Source of the DNA: a virus
Strand: one strand, 5' to 3'
Length of the DNA stretch: 36,793 nt
IMG/VR virus record: IMGVR_UViG_3300011115_000389
Location: 1-36,793 of that record
The stretch's first letter is position 1; the number at the start of each line of letters is the position of its first letter. Below the pieces are notes generated by a model. That model was given only the letters and a program-made list of their open reading frames with translations. It ran no database searches and was not told the DNA's origin. Below, piece by piece: positions 21,717-36,793 of this stretch. Made by a program: the position numbers and the translations under genes.

Positions 21717-22187
21717 ATGGATCCTTTTACGCTGCTGGCGGGTGCAACGGCCATCTATAATGGAATCAAGTCGGCCACGGATGCGGGCCACGAAGCCATA
21801 GACGTTGTAGAGCGCGTTGGCAGTTTGTTCGCAAGAATAGCGCAAATCACGCAACTCACTTCTGGAAATCGGAAGAAAAAACTTTTTCAAAGTCAAGCAG
21901 AATATGAAGCTGAAGCAATAAAATTGTACGCTTTAAAAGCCAAGGCGCAACAGCTCCAGTTGGACACTAAGAACCTGTTTGTAGGGGCGTACGGCCTTGC
22001 AGCGTGGACTTCCATTCAGAAGGAAGTGACGGAAATGCGCAAAGAGGCCGTGCGTCAGGCCGCTATTGCGCAGAAGGAAGCCGAGGAACGCCAAGCCGAG
22101 CTGATCATGGGCGCTTGGATGTTCTTGGGTGTTATCGTCGCCGCGCTGGGCCTTGCACTCTTTGTCTATATCACCGCGCACAAATAG
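21717..22187 (+). CDS. Membrane-anchored coiled-coil protein, lysis region
   Basis: This 156-residue protein is helical over residues 1-125, with strong Glu/Lys/Ala coiled coil (EYEAEAIKLYALKAKAQQLQ, then MRKEAVRQAAIAQKEAEERQAE). It ends in one hydrophobic segment (residues 130-152, MGAWMFLGVIVAALGLALFVYI). The stop is directly followed by GGAG and the holin gene. I do not recognise the family. Lysis-module position and C-terminal anchor suggest a role in envelope disruption. Confidence 0.8.
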   Translation: MDPFTLLAGATAIYNGIKSATDAGHEAIDVVERVGSLFARIAQITQLTSGNRKKKLFQSQAEYEAEAIKLYALKAKAQQLQLDTKNLFVGAYGLAAWTSIQKEVTEMRKEAVRQAAIAQKEAEERQAELIMGAWMFLGVIVAALGLALFVYITAHK

Positions 22188-22195
22188 GAGCTATC

Positions 22196-22723
22196 ATGGA
22201 TCTTCTTAAAATGTTCGGGCCGCTACTCAGCTCAGTCGCGCCATCTCTGGCAACAGCCTTGGGCGGCCCACTAGCGGGCATGGCAACGAAGGCGCTGTCT
22301 CTGGCCCTGCTCGGCAACGAGGACGGCTCTGAGGATGATCTGCAAACAGCCCTTCGCACCGCCTCGCCTGAACAGCTTGCAACGGTCAAGAAGATCGACG
22401 CCGACTTCCGTGTCCAGATGAAGTCGTTGGACATTGACTTGGCGGCGCTTGCGGTGGACGACCGTAAGTCTGCCCGCGAGATGCAGCGCGAGACACGCGA
22501 CTGGCTGCCCAGACTGTTGGCCTTGTTTATTACCGGGGGATATTTCGGGATTATCGGATGGGTGCTTTACGGCGGCCTGCCAATGAACGGTAGCGAGATC
22601 TTGCTCATGCTGCTTGGCACGCTCACTGCGGGATGGTCTGGCGTAATGGCTTTCTATTTTGGTGCTTCTGCGTCGGACATGACGAAAGACAAGATGCTGT
22701 ACAACTCGACACCGAAAGAATAA
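22196..22723 (+). CDS. Holin, three-transmembrane (Holin_3TMs) family
   Basis: The start at 22196 (MDLLKMFGPLL) lies 5 bases after a GGAG site that overlaps the previous stop. The 175-residue protein has a hydrophobic N-terminal segment (7-40). The mid-region VKKIDADFRVQMKSLDIDLAALAVDDRKSAREM precedes the RDWLPRLLALFITGGYF motif and two further membrane segments (about 104-125 and 134-156). This pattern is the Holin_3TMs/DUF3154 family. It would form the pore that times lysis and releases the endolysin encoded next. Confidence 0.9.
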   Translation: MDLLKMFGPLLSSVAPSLATALGGPLAGMATKALSLALLGNEDGSEDDLQTALRTASPEQLATVKKIDADFRVQMKSLDIDLAALAVDDRKSAREMQRETRDWLPRLLALFITGGYFGIIGWVLYGGLPMNGSEILLMLLGTLTAGWSGVMAFYFGASASDMTKDKMLYNSTPKE

Positions 22724-22726
22724 ACG

Positions 22727-23239
22727 ATGAAAGACAATTTTGAAGAGTGCCTTGCCCATGTCTTGAAACATGAAGGGGGGTATGTCGATCACCCCAAGGA
22801 TCCAGGGGGAGCAACAAATTTAGGCGCCACCAAGAAAGTTTGGGAAGAATGGGTCGGCCATGAGGTAACCAAAGATGACATTAAAGCCCTCACCGTCGCA
22901 GATGTCGCCCCGCTCTACAAAGCCCGGTACTGGGACAAGTGCCGCTGCGATGACCTCCCGCATGGGGTGGACTTTGCTGTTTTTGATCTTGCTATTAATT
23001 CTGGTACTGGCCGTGCCAGCAAGTTTCTTCAGGGCGCTTGTGGTGTGGCTGCTGATGGCGCTATCGGCCCTGCTACACTTGCCGCTGTAGCGAAGATGAA
23101 CCCGCGTGAACTAGCGTCGAAGATCTGCGAGCGCCGCTTGGAGTTCCTGCAAGCCCTGCCGACATGGGAAACCTTCGGCAAGGGCTGGGGCAGGCGCGTA
23201 GCCGAGACGGAAGAGGTAGCGTTCAAGATGGTCGGTTGA
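22727..23239 (+). CDS. Endolysin: GH108-type N-acetylmuramidase with C-terminal binding domain
   Basis: This 170-residue lysozyme-like enzyme cuts the glycan of the cell wall. The catalytic glutamate is E16 in the family motif LKHEGGYVDHPKDPGGATNLG. The HGVDFAVFDLAINSG motif follows at about 80-95. The C-terminal domain (GVAADGAIGPATLAAV and onward) is of the peptidoglycan-binding type PG_binding_3. There is no signal peptide, so it depends on the holin. Its last 17 bases overlap the end of the convergent gene at 23223-23414. Confidence 0.94.
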   Translation: MKDNFEECLAHVLKHEGGYVDHPKDPGGATNLGATKKVWEEWVGHEVTKDDIKALTVADVAPLYKARYWDKCRCDDLPHGVDFAVFDLAINSGTGRASKFLQGACGVAADGAIGPATLAAVAKMNPRELASKICERRLEFLQALPTWETFGKGWGRRVAETEEVAFKMVG

Positions 23240-23414
23240 ACGACGGGTTGCTCTGGACGCGGACTTCAGGATTAGCCCAAGTCCATATCTCACCCGTCTC
23301 TTGAACGCACACCCACATCAGGTGATGCTCTTCGCCGTAGTCAATCACAAAGTGCGCCAGTGCTTTACCCTTCGGGGTAATCATTGGCAGTGTGGGGGAC
23401 AGCTGAAGGATCAT
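23223..23414 (-). CDS. Small hypothetical phage protein, 63 aa
   Basis: The start at 23414 (MILQLSPTLPMITPKG) overlaps the preceding stop (TGATG), and GGAG lies 9 bases upstream inside the end of that gene. The GKALAHFVIDYGEEHHLMWVCVQETGEIWTW..NPEVR pattern is frequent in phage genomes as a small protein of unknown function. Its end overlaps the endolysin gene in convergent orientation, so antisense transcription into either is possible. Confidence 0.82.
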   Translation of the reverse strand: MILQLSPTLPMITPKGKALAHFVIDYGEEHHLMWVCVQETGEIWTWANPEVRVQSNPSFNRPS

Positions 23415-23740
23415 CACTCTTTCTCCAGCGCTTTTTGTGCAATTTTCTGTACTGTCGCCATAGGCGGCGCACCAAACTCAGGGTCTGCACGCATACTGGC
23501 AATTCTGTGCAAAGCATTTCCTCTTCGCTCAAATGCTTGGGCCATGTCCCAATATTTGCCCCAATACGTCACGGTTTCTTCCCGCAACCAATCAATTTCT
23601 TTTTGTGCATCGCTAAAAGCGTTCGATGTGTTTTTGATTTGCTTTTCCAATTCAAAAATTAAATCGTCGATGGTGTCACCGTGTCCCGTTGCCAATCCAC
23701 ATCGGATCATCATTTGAGCTAATTTTTCAGTAGCATCCAT
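23414..23740 (-). CDS. MDIVERL-family small coiled-coil protein, 108 aa
   Basis: The protein begins MDATEKLAQMMIRCGL, a diverged form of the MDIVERL opening of its neighbours. It has a helical middle (DTIDDLIFELEKQIKNTSNAFSDAQKEIDWL) and ends QKIAQKALEKE like the other members. The start and stop are in TGATG overlaps, with GGAG 8 bases before the start. Helical heptads suggest self-association. No function is known; the composition resembles the small Ead/Ea22-type early proteins of lambdoid phages. Confidence 0.8.
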   Translation of the reverse strand: MDATEKLAQMMIRCGLATGHGDTIDDLIFELEKQIKNTSNAFSDAQKEIDWLREETVTYWGKYWDMAQAFERRGNALHRIASMRADPEFGAPPMATVQKIAQKALEKE

Positions 23741-23982
23741 CACTCTTTCTCCTTCAGCATAACAGCGATGTCTTTATCAAATTCCTCATGCGAGTAGTCT
23801 GGGCAAAGCCGCATCATGTTGATACGGAACGATGTAATTAGGATGCTTTGATTGTTCCGCAACTGCTCGATCTCGTCGGCGGCCTCACTGTAAATGTTTT
23901 CTGGTCGTTTTGATTTATCAGCAGTAACCCATGTCATAGCTTCCATTCTTGACATACCTTGCAACCGTTCAACGATATCCAT
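23740..23982 (-). CDS. MDIVERL-family small protein, 80 aa
   Basis: The opening MDIVERLQGM and the ending VMLKEKE are shared with the paralogues to its right, while the middle (RMEAMTWVTADKSKRPENIYSEAADEIEQLRNNQ) differs. The ADEIEQLR motif at about 50-57 is the third conserved block. Both ends are TGATG overlaps and the ribosome site is within the last codons of the upstream gene. The function is unknown. It may be one module of a shuffled family. Confidence 0.82.
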   Translation of the reverse strand: MDIVERLQGMSRMEAMTWVTADKSKRPENIYSEAADEIEQLRNNQSILITSFRINMMRLCPDYSHEEFDKDIAVMLKEKE

Positions 23983-24290
23983 CACTCTTCCTCCCCCAAA
24001 ACAATATTAAGTGCAGCACGCGCTTTATCGCCACAATCTTCTTCAATGATTGCATCTACTGCGGGAGCATCAATCCCCCACTCTGCGTAAAATGCCAACG
24101 CCTCCCGCAACCGCTCGATCTCGGCGTCTTGTTTTTCCAAATCGGCATAAGTGTCCTCGCGGCATTCCCTTTCAAAATCAACTTGCCCTCGCAGTTGCTC
24201 AATCGTATCGGCGGCATCATGCAAAGCAATTGCATCGCTATCAAACTTCACAAGACCAATCCGTTGCCGCAACCGTTCAACGATATCCAT
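23982..24290 (-). CDS. MDIVERL-family small protein, 102 aa
   Basis: The opening MDIVERLRQRIG, the ADTIEQLRGQ block and an acidic end (NIVLGEEE) place it in the same family. The middle is coiled-coil with a long Glu/Arg helix (ECREDTYADLEKQDAEIERLREALAFY). Translation starts in a TGATG overlap. The N-terminal eight codons lie in the repeat. It is probably cytoplasmic, with no catalytic motif. The function is unknown. Confidence 0.83.
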   Translation of the reverse strand: MDIVERLRQRIGLVKFDSDAIALHDAADTIEQLRGQVDFERECREDTYADLEKQDAEIERLREALAFYAEWGIDAPAVDAIIEEDCGDKARAALNIVLGEEE

Positions 24291-24520
24291 CACTCTTTCT
24301 CCTTCAGTGCTTTATTAACCGTTCTTGCAATCTCTTCGCGCACCTTCCGATCAGGGCTGTTCACATCTTTACAGGCTTCCAGTACTGTCAAAAGGACTCC
24401 CCGCAACTTAACGATCTCATCGGCCCCATCAAATGCGTTCTGACATTCTTCCTCGGCCCCGCAGGGTGTTGATTCAAAATTACAGGTGCAGCCGCTCCGC
24501 AACCGTTCAACGATATCCAT
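24290..24520 (-). CDS. MDIVERL-family small protein with cysteines, 76 aa
   Basis: Opening MDIVERLRSG, then a cysteine-containing insert (CTCNFESTPCGAEEECQ, four Cys) absent from its neighbours, then ADEIVKLRGVLL and the ending NKALKEKE. The first and last codons fall in the junction repeats. The cysteines could bind a metal or only be a variable module. It lies in the tandem family, and translation is coupled through TGATG. Confidence 0.82.
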   Translation of the reverse strand: MDIVERLRSGCTCNFESTPCGAEEECQNAFDGADEIVKLRGVLLTVLEACKDVNSPDRKVREEIARTVNKALKEKE

Positions 24521-24855
24521 CACTCTTTCTCCCTCAGCGCCTCACGCGCATCTCTGATCCATTTTCTTTGTATCAAACAACTATCCAAAGTATCATCGTT
24601 TCCAACTTCACTCCAATCTTCGTCAGCCCTTAACTCATCAGCATAACCAGAGTCATCGGGCCAAAGATACTTCTTAGCAAATGGTTCCAACGCTTCCCGC
24701 ATCTCCTTCAGTACGTCACGGGCAACCGCTTCTTCGCGTTGTTTGGCGGTCACCCATACCAAAGCGTTTTCAAGCTGCTTCTCCAGAAGCGCCACGCGCT
24801 TGCGTAGTTCAATGATGTGATCCATCGTTACGGGGTCGCAATGTCTGTGTGTCAT
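24520..24855 (-). CDS. Small coiled-coil protein heading the MDIVERL family, 111 aa
   Basis: The start at 24855 (MTHRHCDPVTMDHIIELRKRV) follows AAAGGGG by 5 bases. Its opening differs from the family but contains MDHIIELR at 11-18, and its end (RDAREALREKE) is the shared end, so the C-terminal junction is conserved. The middle is helical (LLEKQLENALVWVTAKQREEAVARDVLKEM) and ends with an acidic loop. Its stop lies in the first 36-base repeat. The start overlaps the preceding membrane protein by four bases (ATGA). Confidence 0.8.
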   Translation of the reverse strand: MTHRHCDPVTMDHIIELRKRVALLEKQLENALVWVTAKQREEAVARDVLKEMREALEPFAKKYLWPDDSGYADELRADEDWSEVGNDDTLDSCLIQRKWIRDAREALREKE

Positions 24856-25013
24856 TCTTTCCCCTTTAATTTTTTTATTTTTCCCCGAAGCCAATTAACC
24901 ACAGACAAAAATATCGCAACGACAAAGACCACAACAATCAAACCGACAACCAACCCGACAAACCAAAATAGTTCCGCAAAAAACTTTGCCATCCAAAACC
25001 AAATGTAATCCAT
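24852..25013 (-). CDS. Membrane microprotein, 53 aa
   Basis: The frame MDYIWFWMAKFFAELFWFVG...KKLKGKE has one long hydrophobic segment (residues 15-40, FWFVGLVVGLIVVVFVVAIFL) and a basic C-terminal tail (NWLRGKIKKLKGKE). Its KGKE end and the ATGA overlap with the next gene repeat the family's junction style. A C-terminal-in topology fits the positive tail. It could act as an antiholin-like or superinfection-exclusion peptide; the sequence does not decide. Confidence 0.7.
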   Translation of the reverse strand: MDYIWFWMAKFFAELFWFVGLVVGLIVVVFVVAIFLSVVNWLRGKIKKLKGKE

Positions 25014-25016
25014 CAC

Positions 25017-25187
25017 TCACCCCCAATAAAAAACAAGGAACCACACCGCGAATAGAATTGCAGGCGCAAAACAAATCGCAATATTTTTAGGTGTAAAATT
25101 AAAATCTTTGTGCATCATATAAAAGGGTGAAAATACCATCCACAAAGCGCCGAGAAAAACTAACTTTACCTGTATTATCTCGCTCAT
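25017..25187 (-). CDS. Membrane microprotein, two segments, 56 aa
   Basis: MSEIIQVKLVFLGALWMVFSP then a short charged loop (HKDFNFTPKN) then IAICFAPAILFAVWFLVFYWG forms two hydrophobic helices. GGAG lies 8 bases ahead of the start at 25187, which overlaps the previous stop by four bases (ATGA). The stop is three bases before the next start. I do not recognise the family. The hairpin topology and size resemble small phage inner-membrane proteins. Confidence 0.65.
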   Translation of the reverse strand: MSEIIQVKLVFLGALWMVFSPFYMMHKDFNFTPKNIAICFAPAILFAVWFLVFYWG

Positions 25188-25372
25188 TTCAACTTCTCCA
25201 ACAGTTCAACGCGCTCCCGCGTGTTACGCAAAATACAATACCTCTGGTGCAACCTGACGATGAACGTAGGCCGCCTGTCGTTGTCGATCTCGTAGTCGAT
25301 CAACATTCTCAGTTCGTCCTCGGTGTACGACATCAACTTGCTGTTCAGCACAACCCAATTCTCTATGCGCAT
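25184..25372 (-). CDS. Small hypothetical protein, 62 aa
   Basis: The start at 25372 has GAGGAG 5 bases upstream, located in the end of the helicase gene, which it overlaps by 10 bases. The frame MRIENWVVLNSKLMSYTEDELRMLIDYEIDNDRRPTF and onward is charged and helical. It ends ERVELLEKLK. It is adjacent to the helicase, so an accessory role in replication is possible, but no motif supports it. Confidence 0.75.
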   Translation of the reverse strand: MRIENWVVLNSKLMSYTEDELRMLIDYEIDNDRRPTFIVRLHQRYCILRNTRERVELLEKLK

Positions 25373-26706
25373 CTTAACTCCTCAATCGCTATGTCGGATA
25401 GCGCCCGTCTATCGTGAAGCCCCGCCCAAATCCCCTCGTCTACCGTCTTGTTCGTTATAAAGATGTAACACCACACATCGTGCTTCTGCCCGCTACGGTG
25501 CAACCGCCCGACCGTCTGCTCGTATAGCTCCAGCGACCCGCGGGGTAACGACAAGAACGCAATATGCGACCCACCATACTGTAAATTCAGGCCATGCCCT
25601 GCGGACTTCGGGTGGACAAACAGCAGTTCAGCCTTGCCGGCGTTCCACCGCTCTATAGCGTCGTCGTCGTCAAGCGTGAGCGCCTTCGGATACCGGCGCT
25701 TCAACTCTGCCAATTCTTCTTGGTACGTGTACACCACGATTGTCGGCGCGTGTTGGTTCTCCTGCAACAACTCGTCAAGCAGATCAAACTTGTGCGTCGA
25801 GAACCAAAACGGCGTCTTGGTCGTCTTGAACTTGCCCGGCGTTGATGTCGCCTCGGTAACGCTCTTGTACACGAACCCCGACGCCATCTGTTGCAACTTG
25901 CCCGACACAACAGCGGCGTTGGCCGCGATTATCTTGGTGTTGTTGTATTCAAGAACGAGATCCTTCTTCATCTTCTCGTAATGTTTACGATCCATGTCGC
26001 ACCGCATCTCGACGACGTGGAGCGGCGGTAGCGTGTCACTGTACTCGCCTGGCTCAAGCACGAACGTCGCCGGCTTGATGCGTTCCATGACCTTCTCAAG
26101 CGAACCCTTGCGCGGTATCCACTCGTTGTAATCTTTGTTCATCAGGATGAAGTACTGCTGCATGAACGCGCCCTTCGAGCGGCCTAGCAAAGACTGGTCA
26201 ACGATCTTGCATTGCCCGAATACATCCTCAAGCCCGTTCGACGTGAAGCTACCCGTCAAGCCCCACCTGACGCGCATAGGTTCGATCACCTTGGCAAGCG
26301 CCTTGAACCGTGCGCCTGACGGGTTCTTGAGCCGCGTCAGCTCGTCAAAGACAATAGCGTCAAAATTCAGCTTCTGAAGTGCCAGCCATTGCAGATTGTC
26401 GTAGTTCGTTACGACGATGTGCGTGTTGGCCTGCAACGCCTGCAACCGTTGCTTGGGCGTCCCGACCGCCAATGACATTGTGAGGTTAATGGCCCATAAA
26501 GGACGCTCCACAGGCCAGACCTTCTTGACCACGCGCAGCGGCGCGAGGACAAGCACACGGTTGATGTGACCGTGCCGGATCATGTCCTGCAATGCTGTCA
26601 ACGTAACCGCCGTCTTACCCGCGCCCACAGGCGCGAGGATCATCGCCCTGTCGTTGGCGAAGAGGAAGTCGGCGGCTTCGTTTTGGTAGGGTCTTAACGC
26701 AAGCAT
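25363..26706 (-). CDS. SNF2-like superfamily 2 helicase
   Basis: This 447-residue ATPase has all core helicase motifs. The Q-motif-like LRPYQNEA opens it at residue 4. Motif I is APVGAGKTA with K31, and motif II is VFDELTRLKN with D121-E122. Motif III is WGLTGSF near 148. Motif VI is QTVGRLHRSGQ at 397-407. SNF2 proteins of this size in phages usually remodel DNA or protein complexes during replication or recombination. DELT in place of DEAH or DEAD is a family variant. The gene starts 13 bases inside the preceding gene's end. Confidence 0.93.
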   Translation of the reverse strand: MLALRPYQNEAADFLFANDRAMILAPVGAGKTAVTLTALQDMIRHGHINRVLVLAPLRVVKKVWPVERPLWAINLTMSLAVGTPKQRLQALQANTHIVVTNYDNLQWLALQKLNFDAIVFDELTRLKNPSGARFKALAKVIEPMRVRWGLTGSFTSNGLEDVFGQCKIVDQSLLGRSKGAFMQQYFILMNKDYNEWIPRKGSLEKVMERIKPATFVLEPGEYSDTLPPLHVVEMRCDMDRKHYEKMKKDLVLEYNNTKIIAANAAVVSGKLQQMASGFVYKSVTEATSTPGKFKTTKTPFWFSTHKFDLLDELLQENQHAPTIVVYTYQEELAELKRRYPKALTLDDDDAIERWNAGKAELLFVHPKSAGHGLNLQYGGSHIAFLSLPRGSLELYEQTVGRLHRSGQKHDVWCYIFITNKTVDEGIWAGLHDRRALSDIAIEELRCA

Positions 26707-26960
26707 GGAAAAGCCTTGTTAACGTGGTCAACTACTTGCATACATTGTTCAGAATTCATACGTTCCATGTGCGCTTCAAATTCAGACATTTGCATTTGAT
26801 CTTGCAACCATGCGTATGCCTCGCGGCGCGTCATTATTCTTTTTTTCCAAATCAAATCAAATTTGGCATGGGCAACTCCCCGCGCTAACACCACGTCATT
26901 TGCAACGGCTTGCGCGTATGCCTTGCGTAAACTAGTTGCCAACTGTTTTAACCCACTCAT
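26694..26960 (-). CDS. Small helical protein resembling the C-terminal part of DUF3268
   Basis: The start at 26960 (MSGLKQLATSL) follows GGAG by 7 bases. The C-terminal half, RIMTRREAYAWLQDQMQMSEFEAHMERMNSEQCMQVV, resembles the helical end of zinc-finger-containing DUF3268 proteins (RREAYxWLAxQLxL...MxxxxCxxVV). The N-terminal zinc finger of that family is absent. The gene lies between nuclease and helicase and overlaps both, which suggests a linked nucleic-acid function. The match is only partial. Confidence 0.75.
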   Translation of the reverse strand: MSGLKQLATSLRKAYAQAVANDVVLARGVAHAKFDLIWKKRIMTRREAYAWLQDQMQMSEFEAHMERMNSEQCMQVVDHVNKAFPCLR

Positions 26961-27207
26961 CAACTTGCTCCGTTGTCCACAGACACGCATAGTTCTGGTT
27001 AAGCCGTTGCATCTCGGCGGCGAAGAGTTCCTGAAGCGGCGCTAGTTTGCCGCCCTTGGTCTTCAACTCGACGAACCATGTTGAGCCGTCTGGTAGACAA
27101 GCTATTCTGTCTGACACACCACGCCGCGCCGGGGACACGAACTTGTACGACCGACCGCCCATGCGCTCGACCGCCCAGTTGAAATAGTGTTCTACGTCGC
27201 GTTCCAT
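26932..27207 (-). CDS. VRR-NUC domain nuclease, 91 aa
   Basis: This is a compact PD-(D/E)xK nuclease of the VRR-NUC type. It starts MERDVEHYFNWAVE, and the catalytic set is D33 (GVSDRI), E47 and K49 (TWFVELKTKGG), with Q59 (LAPLQ) completing the motif. Phage VRR-NUC proteins often resolve branched DNA. The start at 27207 has no clear ribosome site and lies 7 bases from a predicted -10 box, so the mRNA may be leaderless. The 3' end overlaps the next gene by 29 bases. Confidence 0.92.
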   Translation of the reverse strand: MERDVEHYFNWAVERMGGRSYKFVSPARRGVSDRIACLPDGSTWFVELKTKGGKLAPLQELFAAEMQRLNQNYACLWTTEQVDEWVKTVGN

Positions 27208-27214
27208 ATTTTGT

Positions 27215-27243
27215 TGTATAAGCCATTAAAAATTGTTTGACAA
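27215..27243 (-). promoter_or_regulatory. Leftward promoter overlapping a rightward one
   Basis: On the minus strand, TTGTCA (plus 27238-27243) is 17 bases from TATACA (plus 27215-27220). Transcription would start at about 27208, adjacent to the ATG at 27207. Its -35 box overlaps that of the rightward promoter at 27237-27242 by five bases. Confidence 0.55.
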
Positions 27244-27264
27244 CAGTTTATGTGATGTTAATGT
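27237..27264 (+). promoter_or_regulatory. Rightward promoter of the replication block
   Basis: TTGACA (27237-27242), a perfect -35 box, is followed after 16 bases by TAATGT (27259-27264). The predicted start near 27271 leaves a leader of about 19 bases with GGAG before the ATG at 27290. Confidence 0.55.
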
Positions 27265-27289
27265 GGATATCTCAAACGGAGAAAATAAG

Positions 27290-28423
27290 ATGAAGCACAG
27301 TAATGTTGTCGGCGGCTCTACCGCCAAGCGCGTCATGGCCTGTCCAGGCTCAGTGGCGCTATGCGAGAAGATGCCACCAAAGCCGTCAAGCACCTACGCG
27401 GACGAGGGTACTCTTCTGCATACGTTGATCGCCGAGTATCTCGAACACGGCACGAAGCCCGACAAATTTATCGGGCGTACATATGAGGCGCAAACGCTTA
27501 CCGAGGATCTTCTGCATGAGAAACTTCTTCCTGCAATTAAGGCGTTGGATGAACTTGACCCAGAAGGAAAGATGGACATCGCCGTCGAGACAAACGTCAG
27601 TTTTGATAATGCGGCACTGTCCGGTGTGTTTGGCTCAACAGATTTGTTGGGGCGAATTGGGAACACAGCCTACGTTATCGACTGGAAGTTTGGCGACGGG
27701 GTTTTGGTTACGGCAGAAGAAAACCCGCAACTCATGTTCTACGCCGCAGCCGCTATGCGGACACCCTCGGTCAAATGGGTGTTTGATGGAGCCACAGCAA
27801 TCGAGTGCATCATAATTCAGCCGACCAGAGGCGTCAGCCGCTGGACGACGACACCTGAGCGCATCGCGCAGTTTGAGATTGAACTCACCCGCGCAGTGAA
27901 GAAGGCGCAACTGCCCGACGCCGAGTTGAACGTCGGCGACCACTGCCGGTGGTGCGCCGCCAAGCCGACCTGTCCTATGTTCACGGGAGCTGTGGATAGA
28001 GCGCTCAAGACCAAGTTCGACGCTCTGGACAATACGTTAATCGGCGCGTATCTTCTTAATGCGGATCTTCTCGAAGACTGGATTAAGGATTTGAGAAATC
28101 TGGCACTTAGTACACTGGAACGCGGTAACACGATACCTGGGTACAAACTGGTCGCCAAGCGCGGCACAAGACAATGGGTGAGTGAGGACGCCGCTAAAGT
28201 AGTGCTTCTCAACATCCTCGACGAATCTGAAGTGGTTGAGAGTTCTCTTCTCTCGCCGGCCAAAGTAGAGAAACTGCTGAAGAAGCGGGCTATCGAAATG
28301 CCGGAAGGATTAGTTGTCTCAATCTCGTCAGGTAATACACTGGCAAGCGAGGATGACCCTCGACCCAGTGCCGTTCTCATCGGGCAGCAATTGAGTGCTG
28401 CCCTTAGTAAAATAGGGATTTGA
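27290..28423 (+). CDS. Cas4/RecB-like nuclease, DUF2800 type
   Basis: The start at 27290 (MKHSNVVGGSTAKRVMACPGS) follows GGAG by 8 bases; 377 residues. The PD-(D/E)xK core includes H44 (EGTLLH), D118 (SGVFGSTDLLG) and D131-K133 (AYVIDWKFGDG), followed by QLMFYA. Cysteines C18, C219, C222 and C228 (CRWCAAKPTC) fit the four-cysteine iron-sulfur site of Cas4/AddB proteins. DUF2800 proteins are frequent beside phage single-strand-binding proteins and polymerases, and are probably recombination exonucleases. Confidence 0.93.
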   Translation: MKHSNVVGGSTAKRVMACPGSVALCEKMPPKPSSTYADEGTLLHTLIAEYLEHGTKPDKFIGRTYEAQTLTEDLLHEKLLPAIKALDELDPEGKMDIAVETNVSFDNAALSGVFGSTDLLGRIGNTAYVIDWKFGDGVLVTAEENPQLMFYAAAAMRTPSVKWVFDGATAIECIIIQPTRGVSRWTTTPERIAQFEIELTRAVKKAQLPDAELNVGDHCRWCAAKPTCPMFTGAVDRALKTKFDALDNTLIGAYLLNADLLEDWIKDLRNLALSTLERGNTIPGYKLVAKRGTRQWVSEDAAKVVLLNILDESEVVESSLLSPAKVEKLLKKRAIEMPEGLVVSISSGNTLASEDDPRPSAVLIGQQLSAALSKIGI

Positions 28424-28425
28424 TA

Positions 28426-29076
28426 ATGTCGAATGCAGTTGGATTTGCTAATGTTAACCTTCCTTCAGTTCAGAGCCTGAGCGCGGCGTTGCGCTCACTG
28501 GACACGGGTGTGTCAAGCGGTTCTGTCATCCTGAAAATGGACAAGACAGGCCATTGGGTCTTCGGCGCTGACCAGACCGAAGTTGAAACCGGTTCTCTTT
28601 GGGCCGTCAATCCGTACTCTTTCATTCACGGGTTTATTGCGTGGGGTGAAGGCGACGTATTGGGTGAGAAGATGGTTCCGATCACGCAACCTTTGCCTGA
28701 GATGGACGATGCGCCGCCTACCGCAAAGCGCGGTTGGGAGACGCAAGTTGGTATGTCTCTGAAGTGCTTGGATGGCGAAGACAAGGACATGGAAGTGCGC
28801 TTCGCTACCACGTCGGTCGGCGGCAAGCGTGCGGTTCAGGAGATGGCGGCGGCTATCGCCACTCAAGTTGACGAGGATGTCAGCAAGCCTGTGCCGGTGG
28901 TTAACCTGCACAAGGAACACTATCAGCACAAGTCCTACGGTCGCATCTTCACGCCTGTGTTCAAGGTCGTAAAGTGGGTCGGTATGGATGGCGCGACTGA
29001 ACCAGTCGTTGCGGATGAAGAGCCTGAGTTGGATCTTCAACCTACTGGTCGCCGTCGCCGCCCGGCGGCAGCTTAA
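28426..29076 (+). CDS. Probable single-strand-binding-type protein
   Basis: The start at 28426 (MSNAVGFANVNLPSV) lies 2 bases after the nuclease stop. The 216-residue protein has a beta-rich core (SVILKMDKTGHWVFGADQTEVETGSLWAVNPYSFIHGFIAW), a KRGWETQVGMSLKCLDG segment, and an acidic region (VADEEPELDLQP) before a basic end (GRRRRPAAA). This protein recurs between DUF2800 nucleases and polymerase genes. An acidic tail resembles SSB tails, but the assignment is by position and composition. A terminator hairpin follows it. Confidence 0.8.
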   Translation: MSNAVGFANVNLPSVQSLSAALRSLDTGVSSGSVILKMDKTGHWVFGADQTEVETGSLWAVNPYSFIHGFIAWGEGDVLGEKMVPITQPLPEMDDAPPTAKRGWETQVGMSLKCLDGEDKDMEVRFATTSVGGKRAVQEMAAAIATQVDEDVSKPVPVVNLHKEHYQHKSYGRIFTPVFKVVKWVGMDGATEPVVADEEPELDLQPTGRRRRPAAA

Positions 29077-33875: not shown

Positions 33876-34056
33876 ATTGTCCTCTTTCCTTTACTGCCAT
33901 TGCGGCGCCTGTTGACGTGTAGTGGTAGGTTATCTGGCCGTCGTGCGTCGTCGCACGCCATTGGCCCTTCCATCTGTTGAGGCTGATCCAACCAAGGCGG
34001 TTGTCTTGCTCGTCCGCAACAATGAAACAGTCATCCCCGTCGTAGATTAAGTTCAT
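33745..34056 (-). CDS. Small hypothetical protein overlapping the DUF6378-like gene
   Basis: The start is taken at 34056 (MNLIYDGDDCFIVADEQDNRLGWISL) rather than 34098. The first 58 residues, ending near HYTSTGAAMAVK, are a small beta-rich region (GWISLNRWKGQWRATTHDGQITYHY). The rest is charged (REDTRTIREDSRDKPEAQDSDDAVQELAEA) and lies in 131 bases shared with the DUF6378-like gene in a different frame. The overlap is unusually long, so a frameshift or an overprinted tail is possible. The function is unknown. Confidence 0.6.
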   Translation of the reverse strand: MNLIYDGDDCFIVADEQDNRLGWISLNRWKGQWRATTHDGQITYHYTSTGAAMAVKERGQYVKRTREDTRTIREDSRDKPEAQDSDDAVQELAEAYRAASRGD

Positions 34057-34456
34057 AGCGTTTGATCCCATAATAAACGGTTGAGTGATCCCGATCACCT
34101 ATGTAGCGCCCGATTTGCGGCAGCGACAGGCCGAGTTCTTTGCTTAGCCGATAGTAGGCCAACATCCGCGCATCGATAAATTTTTTACTGCGGTTGTGGC
34201 TGGTCAATTGATCCAGTGTGACGCCATGCGATGCGCAGACCTCGCGCAGGATCAGCTTCCATTTCGGAACGCCGGCAACGCCTGCAACCTTCAGCAATTC
34301 ATGCGCTTCGCGGAACTGCTCGCGCATGGATATTGACAACGCGGGTGGTTCTGGTGGTGGCGGCGGTGGCGGTGGCGGTGGCGGTGCAACACTAGGAATA
34401 GCACCCGCCCACAATCGCGCCCTGACCGCCTTATAATGTTGCTGCAACTCGTTCAT
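34031..34456 (-). CDS. DnaA domain IV-like DNA-binding protein with polyproline linker
   Basis: This 141-residue protein has a short N-terminal helix, a run of 11 prolines (25-35) and a C-terminal domain like domain IV of DnaA. The helix-turn-helix spans about 88-136 (NRSKKFIDARMLAYYRLSKELGLSLPQIGRYIGDRDHSTVYYGIKRYE), with the family signature D-H-S-T-V at 123-127. DnaA domain IV recognises origin boxes; this protein has no ATPase domain. It could mark the phage origin or compete with host DnaA. AAGGA is 7 bases before the start at 34456. Confidence 0.9.
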   Translation of the reverse strand: MNELQQHYKAVRARLWAGAIPSVAPPPPPPPPPPPEPPALSISMREQFREAHELLKVAGVAGVPKWKLILREVCASHGVTLDQLTSHNRSKKFIDARMLAYYRLSKELGLSLPQIGRYIGDRDHSTVYYGIKRYELNLRRG

Positions 34457-34643: not shown

Positions 34644-35225
34644 CTAACAAGCCCAGGCGATACTAGGCGCTGATTTTAAATCCTGCCCAATCCGATACGG
34701 CATAACAACGCCGAATATGTCCTCTTGTGATCCGATACGCACCAACGCCGGGTTGTGGCCGTTGTGATATACAACCGGATCAGGTGAACCGTCCTGCATG
34801 ATTTCAGCCGCTTTTTTAAAATCAACAATATAGTCCGGGTTGAACTGCGCTACTTCGCCGATATCAAACTTCGCGCTTTGAACGATGCGCGCAGTGTTTG
34901 GAAACGTCCCGTCTACTAAAGCGCCGCCGAATGTTTCGCCGGCATAGGCCAGCGATATCATGCCGCCGGTAATTGTGATGATCAATTCAGGCGCTGCCTT
35001 CCGGTTTAACTTAATCTTATCAATCAGCGTACGCGGGATAATCACGTCGCAATCGTCGCCAGCGCAGGGCTGCCGGGCAAGTATCAGCCGGTGACCGTCA
35101 GTAGCGCGCAGCACTGCCCAATTGTCTTTGACGGTAAACGAAACACCGCACAAATAGTAACGTGTTTCCTCTTTCGACATTGCAACTGCAACCGCCTTAA
35201 GTAAACGTGCATTTATATTGTACAT
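34644..35225 (-). CDS. Beta-clamp-like protein (DnaN-related)
   Basis: The start at 35225 lies 6 bases after GGGAG. The 193-residue protein has the clamp pattern YYLCGVSFTVKDNWAVLRATDGHRLILARQ, with a DGHRL motif near residue 44-48, followed by VIIPRTLIDKIKL and the AYAGETFGGALVDGTFPN block that corresponds to the DnaN loop with a conserved D-G-x-F/Y-P. It is about half the usual DnaN length, so it may form a trimer or act as a clamp-like accessory. It is preceded by an alternative-hairpin region. The role as a polymerase processivity factor is inferred. Confidence 0.85.
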   Translation of the reverse strand: MYNINARLLKAVAVAMSKEETRYYLCGVSFTVKDNWAVLRATDGHRLILARQPCAGDDCDVIIPRTLIDKIKLNRKAAPELIITITGGMISLAYAGETFGGALVDGTFPNTARIVQSAKFDIGEVAQFNPDYIVDFKKAAEIMQDGSPDPVVYHNGHNPALVRIGSQEDIFGVVMPYRIGQDLKSAPSIAWAC

Positions 35226-36428: not shown

Positions 36429-36793
36429 TATGCCGCGAAATGTGACGCGGTCGGGCCATGCGCCATTATGACCATTGACACTTTGGCCTTCGCGCTTGTT
36501 CCGCCGCACGCACGACATGTTGCGCAAGTTGTTTTATATCCGGCTTCCTTGCTAGCAGGGCAAATTGCCTCGCTTGATTGTTTTGCCTCGCTTGCGTGCC
36601 GCACGCGGAACGTACGCCATCCCATAGCGTGCGCTTGCTCTAAATCGGCGACGCTATCGGCGCTAGCCATGCAAAGCAATTTGAAAGCCTGAAAACGTGG
36701 ATCACGCCATTGGTGCGTATATCCGTTTTTTGCGATCACTTTTAGAGTGCATGCGCGCCAGATTTGCAACGGAACGGCAGCACCGTCGCCATA
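36428..36793 (-). CDS. Cysteine-rich conserved phage protein, C-terminal part (gene wraps the contig ends)
   Basis: This is the end of the 264-residue gene whose start is at 618. Residues from 207 on are unique to this side: VRHASEAKQSSEAICPASKEAG then KTTCATCRACGG. Cysteines C221, C233, C236 and C239 look like a zinc-ribbon. Bases 36605-36793 repeat the left end. An ATG-less start inside the window (TTG at 36769) is an artefact of the cut, because the frame stays open to the window edge. Confidence 0.85.
   Translation of the reverse strand, partial: YGDGAAVPLQIWRACTLKVIAKNGYTHQWRDPRFQAFKLLCMASADSVADLEQAHAMGWRTFRVRHASEAKQSSEAICPASKEAGYKTTCATCRACGGTSAKAKVSMVIMAHGPTASHFAA
36605..36793. repeat. 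Terminal redundancy, right copy (189 bases)
   Basis: This matches 1-189 with two differences, at 36644 and 36767. Removing one copy leaves a circle of 36,604 bases in which every gene is intact. Confidence 0.9.

Follow-up and report, generated by a model that had tools for sequence, protein, structure and literature searches.

Small-gene modules probably exchanged at two recurrent joints in a hypervariable accessory locus of a phage

The region between the helicase and lysis genes of the virus record analysed here (the window, which is the whole record of 36,793 bases) can be regarded as a hypervariable accessory locus, in which interchangeable modules are probably exchanged at two joints. 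Each small gene consists of a front module and a back module with a block of the AADEIERLR type between them, to which a further block and a middle module are sometimes added. The modules are separated by two short joints that are conserved at the DNA level. The outer joint, of about 38 nt, stretches from the tail of one gene over a Shine-Dalgarno sequence (AAGGAG, read as KE) and a TGA/ATG overlap to codon eight of the following gene, and the inner joint, of 27 nt, encodes a stretch modelled within one long helix. Homologous exchange between joints could take place within one genome or between co-infecting phages, either through the host RecA or through a phage exonuclease and single-strand DNA-binding protein (SSB). 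At the outer joint, whole genes could then be deleted, inserted, swapped or reordered without breaking translation, and at the inner joint any front could be joined in frame to any back, inside the helix.

The window carries podovirus-type genes, namely terminase, portal, major head protein, DNA polymerase A, primase, SNF2 helicase, exonuclease and endolysin. The row of small minus-strand genes lies between the helicase with its 62-aa follower (25184-26706, -) and a 63-aa gene adjacent to the endolysin (23223-23414, -). The coordinates of these genes, of the array genes and of their joints are given in Table 1. The 54-aa gene preceding the array belongs to the variable stretch, and DNA homologous to it was found in only some relatives (L010, L215, L213, L216, L222 and L083).

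Table 1. Array genes, joints and neighbouring genes in the window.
Feature	Position	Strand	Remarks
SNF2-type helicase	25363..26706	-	upstream of array; backbone marker
Left flanking gene, 62 aa, MRIENWVVLNS	25184..25372	-	constant anchor, downstream of SNF2 helicase
54-aa small membrane-like gene MDYIWFWMAKFF	24852..25013	-	belongs to variable stretch
g5, cassette gene MTHRHCDPVTMDHIIELRKRVALLEKQL...ALREKE	24520..24855	-	111 aa from MTHRHCD
Junction joint g5/g4	24497..24534	-	GG-AG Shine-Dalgarno, TGA overlapping ATG, MDIVERLR
g4, cassette gene: front SGCTCNFESTPCG + back GVLLTVLEACKDVNSPD	24290..24520	-	
Inner joint of g4 (GADEIVKLR)	24401..24427	-	homologous segments end/begin there (query 1089-1101 / 1094)
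Junction joint g4/g3	24267..24304	-	
g3, cassette gene: front QRIGLVKFDSDAIAL, middle GQVDFERECREDTYADLEKQD, back FYAEWGIDAPAVDAIIEED	23982..24290	-	
First inner joint of g3 (AADTIEQLR)	24189..24215	-	
Second inner joint of g3 (AEIERLREAL)	24096..24125	-	segments of different contigs meet there (query 1378-1405)
Junction joint g3/g2	23959..23996	-	
g2, cassette gene: front QGMSRMEAMTWVTADKS + back INMMRLCPDYSHEEFDKDIAVM	23740..23982	-	
Inner joint of g2 (AADEIEQLR)	23857..23883	-	
Junction joint g2/g1	23717..23754	-	weaker: 15-nt core kept, MDATEKL start
g1, last cassette gene MDATEKLAQMMIRCG...ALEKE	23414..23740	-	
Right flanking gene, 63 aa, MILQLSPTLP	23223..23414	-	constant anchor adjoining endolysin
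VRR-NUC / Holliday-junction-resolvase-like nuclease	26932..27207	-	possible recombination helper; phrog_93 3e-23; phrog_5702 Holliday junction resolvase 5e-6
PD-(D/E)XK exonuclease (DUF2800)	27233..28423	+	possible recombination helper; PF10926 1e-59; phrog_69 exonuclease 4e-71
Single-strand DNA-binding protein, probable	28420..29076	+	beside exonuclease; weak: top PDB matches SSBs, best E 0.035

Five genes, g5 to g1, run on the minus strand from 24855 down to 23414, and the stop codon of every one overlaps the next start as TGATG. The original prediction, made from the letters of the window, described a tandem family sharing its first codons (MDIVERL), an ADEIEQL block and its last codons (ALKEKE). 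The shared tandem layout was found, but MDIVERL starts three genes only (g4, g3 and g2, with MDATEKL in g1 and MTHRHCD in g5). Variants also occur in the inner block (GADEIVKLR in g4, AADTIEQLR in g3 and AADEIEQLR in g2) and in the tail (ALREKE in g5, ALKEKE in g4, LGEEE in g3, LKEKE in g2 and ALEKE in g1). The middles of the genes were said to differ, and indeed they are unrelated by sequence. No convincing Pfam, PHROG, NCBIfam or PADLOC family match was obtained for the array genes of the window; weak Pfam matches to YscO and to an antitoxin were below the curated cut-offs and were dropped. A fold search with a cassette model returned long helices only, and nothing useful was matched.

The outer joints share a 15-nt core, CATCACTCTTTCTCC (+ strand), present at five junctions (23412, 23738, 23980 with 1 mismatch, 24288 and 24518). 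The longest exact repeat within 23412-24855 is the 36 nt common to the g5/g4 and g4/g3 junctions, while 1,000 dinucleotide shuffles gave a mean of 10.5 and a maximum of 16; the predicted junction block of up to 36 identical bases, with a gene end, a ribosome site and the next start, is thus real. The g3/g2 junction has a 29-nt exact run with each of these two. Over 132 junctions from 76 contigs, the consensus reads AAGGAG, a short spacer, GAG, TGATG and then GATATYGTTGAACGGTTGCGG, with a conservation that is partly imposed because many of the contigs were fetched by an outer-joint pattern covering the start; the set fetched through the helicase and the two anchor genes is free of this selection bias. 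The KEKE and KEGE tails are present because the Shine-Dalgarno sequence and the last codon before the stop get translated, and judging from its sequence the outer joint appears to be arranged for coupled translation. In the MDIVERLR codons, agreement at third positions is higher inside one contig (0.75) than across contigs (0.66; 0/500 permutations), a likeness that supports local exchange without proving it, since related lineages have codon habits in common.

The close relatives, fetched via the helicase and the two anchor genes and not via the joint, showed that the content of the locus changes between constant flanks. Among 17 contigs sharing both flanking genes, the anchors are separated by 147 to 2,573 bp, and apart from the empty state 11 different contents occur. 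The empty gap of 147 bp was found in L007, L012 and L014, and the other lengths are 441 (L101), 648 (L015), 723 (L008), 774 (L011 and L106), 913 (L009), 934 (L010), 1,196 (L002, L003, L004 and L006), 1,588 (L013), 1,775 (the window) and 2,573 bp (L016). The left flank is 89-100% identical over 1,200 nt, whereas for the arrays the shared part is mostly far below half of the sequence and often nil. A blastn walk along the region gave the same picture: over its first 318 nt the query is 90-98% identical to 16 close relatives, after which this homology ends and is replaced by short segments from many different contigs; it returns at query 2054-2087, at the right anchor gene or slightly ahead of it, and continues from there. 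Whole junction-bounded genes are gained, lost, replaced and reordered among these relatives with both flanks conserved, which is what the original prediction had proposed could happen between junctions; the pattern that would have spoken against it, the same genes in the same order with a diverged junction, was not seen among the relatives. In L002 and L004 the 1,196 bases of the array are identical between flanks that are only 96.8% and 97.7% identical, indicating that a whole array can move.

A second joint is located inside the genes, at the AADEIERLR block, and it splits the cassette proteins into front and back modules. An earlier count gave 65 fronts and 76 backs, with 20 fronts found with more than one back and 15 backs with more than one front. 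In a wider set of 169 proteins, at a stricter threshold, 85 fronts and 97 backs were combined in 137 pairings, an excess of 58 over one-to-one matching; such counts vary with the similarity threshold and with the regular expression that defines the inner block. Two complete four-way squares were present, in which two fronts and two backs occur in all combinations. The genes of the window take part in this re-pairing. The 5' part of g5, most often the first array member, recurs in that place in most close relatives with different back parts. The g4 front occurs with four kinds of back, and L016, L089, L209 and L271 have it with other backs than the window, the g4 back being found behind other fronts in L084, L090 and L261. 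The g3 back follows another front in L239, backs related to that of g2 lie behind other fronts in L213, L220 and L016, and the front and back parts of g1 match different contigs (query 1744-1920 and 1912-2089). Module order changes as well: NCTCNF precedes QRIGLV in the window, L016, L217, L230 and L235, and follows it in L092, L224 and L263. In L201, L208 and L254 a single array contains one back module twice, behind two different fronts. The AlphaFold model of g3 (mean pLDDT 84) has helices at 3-11, 17-70 and 75-97, with the inner block within the long helix 17-70, so that halves joined there would be predicted to keep the helix going.

Ends of homologous segments (at least 60 nt at 88% identity or more) are concentrated at the joints. 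In 87 array loci, outer joints hold 31% of them, where 9.3% would be expected, and inner joints 16%, where the expectation is 4.3%, which amounts to 47% against the 15% expected for both together on the assumption of an even spread of breaks along the loci; 0/2,000 random placements reached this total. The remaining 53% of the homology breaks lie outside annotated joints; some of them will be unannotated joints or indels, and some will not.

Homologous recombination at the joints is the likeliest cause of these exchanges. The joints of the window share 29-36 identical bases, near the minimal lengths (MEPS) cited for RecA (31-34 bp) and Red-beta (23-27 bp) (PMC3945230), and among the products of the window are an exonuclease, a resolvase-like nuclease and, probably, an SSB. 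A search of the window for Erf, RecT and Rad52 family proteins was negative. The 218-aa gene beside the exonuclease was considered as an annealase and dropped, since its model and an annotated relative indicate an SSB; in phage DSL-LC05 the same arrangement is annotated as 'RecB family exonuclease' followed by 'single-stranded DNA-binding protein'. The case for homologous recombination is weakened by the shorter identical runs in most other joint pairs: within contigs, exact identity reaches at least 23 nt in only 33% of outer-joint pairs and at least 31 nt in 1%, and the corresponding figures for inner joints are 12% and 10%. Homogenisation of inner joints within contigs was non-significant over all sites (112/500) and borderline at third positions (36/500).

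The main rival is random joining followed by selection, in which illegitimate recombination would occur anywhere, and the products with intact translation and helix register would survive; the joints would then be survivors and not causes, conserved since translation and the protein need them. Illegitimate recombination has been named an attractive source for most phage mosaicism (PMC3029335), and such an origin would fit the joint identities below published MEPS values, the majority of breaks elsewhere than joints, the obviously translational outer joint and the position of the inner joint in a modelled helix. However, it does not readily explain why, inside contigs, the outer joint is homogenised at its synonymous positions, or why identity in the window runs for 29-36 nt across silent positions. 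In addition, a Dam methyltransferase gene in the L082 array has the same coupled start and an ALKEGE tail, as if joint DNA travelled with the insert. We consider this explanation unlikely, although it keeps appreciable weight next to homologous exchange at the joints.

Plain tandem duplication, with middles that diverged while start, block and tail were kept by function, would account for same-strand tandem genes with a common start and block, and a few arrays do hold one module twice. It is nevertheless very improbable, since unrelated middles recur elsewhere at ~85-98% DNA identity with other partners and in other orders, which makes duplication and divergence alone insufficient. Short recurrent boundary sequences around many cassettes could also point to a dedicated site-specific or diversity-generating device, either integron-like or based on a reverse transcriptase. 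Integron cassettes come with an integrase gene and inverted-repeat attC sites, and a diversity-generating retroelement has a reverse transcriptase, template and variable repeats and adenine-directed changes. That reading is scarcely credible, given that the genome of the window contains neither a tyrosine integrase (PF00589) nor a reverse transcriptase (PF00078), that the only inverted-repeat pair of the region lies away from the joints, that 61-nt stretches around four junctions fold no significantly better than shuffles, and that variation proceeds by block replacement. Least probable of all is the joining of unrelated pieces at repeats during metagenome assembly: all the arrays come from metagenome contigs, and two cassette protein queries (one of them an artificial front and back combination) had no match at E 0.01 in 50,697 named phage records, but the repeats are short, the 1,196-bp L002 array is base-identical in contigs from four IMG sample ids, the pairing NCTCNF + ALLDAV recurs in L016, L085, L180 and L235, and the pieces that replace one another are complete genes that can be translated.

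Modules of these arrays are also found in phages of other backbones, which lack the helicase of the window. In 50 contigs, mostly fetched by the joint pattern, the helicase was clear in two at 91-92% identity and in a third at 66%, and weak in three more. Among the others of these contigs, the large genes of 12 that were read further form several groups; the terminase of the window is 32-35% identical to one protein each of two of the genomes (G022 and G033), and no blastp match was found between it and the terminases of two others (G008 and G037). The original prediction had proposed recombination at the gene junctions, a mechanism supported so far, but it missed both the second joint inside the genes and this traffic of modules across backbones. 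The lysis block at 21717-23239 (+), three genes including a GH108 endolysin, is 49-91% identical in several array contigs of other backbones, indicating that exchange is not confined to the array. In a sister clade with a helicase about 72% identical, the five members read have small genes at the same place, without such joints, indicating that the array is not general to the family.

A search of bacterial and archaeal genomes with the outer-joint pattern matched three contigs. L303 and L304 encode no cassettes, and L305, from a metagenome-assembled genome titled uncultured Ferrovum, encodes cassettes, one of them with a back part also found in L016; this is a possible hint about the host, weak since the genome is a bin.

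Besides the Dam-type gene of L082, with its coupled start and stop, the inserts of other arrays include a methyltransferase-like protein in L013 and an HTH protein in L011, those resembling methyltransferases being only occasional neighbours. A family of 167-182 aa, DCGTVACIGGWCWLL, recurs inside arrays of different phages (L215, L092, L263, L213, L005 and L016); the one copy tested had no Pfam or NCBIfam match. The high turnover beside conserved flanks suggests, as far as sequence comparison can tell, that the proteins are under changing selection. Our guess, a tentative one that falls somewhat short of an even chance, is that the varied small proteins act on the host and that selection on them maintains the system. 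The original prediction saw in them small early proteins that perhaps act against host defences, both of which would be conjectural attributes.

Among known systems, the PeSL of T4-type phages is a conserved regulatory sequence that reportedly mediates shuffling of small accessory genes. The PeSL element consists of an early promoter and a stem-loop terminator. The array is similar in tying a conserved sequence to such shuffling, but its joint is a coding sequence in a stop/start overlap, and promoter- and terminator-like sites in the array region were no commoner than in shuffles; folding around four junctions gave no significant gain over shuffles either. The nearest published precedent is found in mycobacteriophage Island3, where gene 68 is gained or lost between repeats of ~50 bp coding for the 18 C-terminal residues of two adjacent genes, a case termed the first of its kind in mycobacteriophages (PMC3029335). 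As in Island3, the array repeat takes in the ends of adjacent genes and is a place where modules break; unlike in Island3, the repeat also carries the ribosome site and start and recurs as an array, with a second, intragenic joint at which front and back halves are re-paired across several backbones. The Start-Associated Sequences (SAS) of Cluster K mycobacteriophages are another repeat with a Shine-Dalgarno core before the starts of varied genes, in their case non-structural, and consist of a 13-bp upstream sequence, GGGATAGGAGCCC (PMC3203893). No copy of this sequence with 2 mismatches or fewer was present in the window, and the array repeat differs in extending into the coding region and in being linked to gene exchange. 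In archaeal viruses a conserved early promoter precedes varied genes, with anti-defence roles tested there (PMC11065993). The likeness lies in a conserved expression signal before many unrelated small viral genes, although that element is a promoter and the one described here is a translational joint. Extensive gene remodelling in viruses has been described for composite genes (Jachiet 2014, PMC4202312). The array genes are comparable in being built from segments of unrelated families and different in that re-pairing is repeated and concentrated at two defined joints, in tandem arrays. The array resembles published cases of recombination at short boundaries, extended here to an array that builds chimeric genes.

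A similar organization was found in DSL-LC05, the phage that gave the best terminase match among the named phages. At the same locus, between its helicase and holin (L308 8961-10327), are two tandem genes of a family unrelated to that of the window (MSKEAMKLALEAL...ALREALAEQPAQQEP...KEKNT), with the shared start MSKEAMKL, a ALREALAEQPAQQEP block, KENT or KEKNT tails encoding AAGGAG and an ATGA overlap. With a pattern for this family, 48 viral contigs were matched. The ATGA ending is present in 28 of 40 member proteins, and in several contigs fronts and backs have changed partners. The same design seems to recur in this second family, as judged from a much smaller data set.

It is possible, though rather doubtful, that recombination itself is part of the selected benefit of the joints, with pooled modules assembled in frame into chimeric proteins, and that the design arose more than once. 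If true, this would be a kind of exon shuffling without introns. Small genes without known relatives abound in phages, and this system lets the origin of such genes be watched, with its close relatives, defined joints, countable module pool and translatable chimeric genes; it also offers a test of whether exchangeability itself is selected for in phage genomes. The combination of a ribosome site in the gene tail, a stop/start overlap, shared first codons and an inner block is a signature with which further arrays and candidate host-acting proteins could be found.

The window contig ends in direct terminal repeats of 189 bp with 2 mismatches (1-189 and 36605-36793), indicating that it may be a complete genome of ~36.6 kb. 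Close to its right end are two genes that are unusual replication parts given the phage size: a 141-aa protein in which a DnaA C-terminal domain follows a poly-proline stretch (34031-34456, -), and a 193-aa protein whose match to the beta sliding clamp is limited to the central domain (34644-35225, -).
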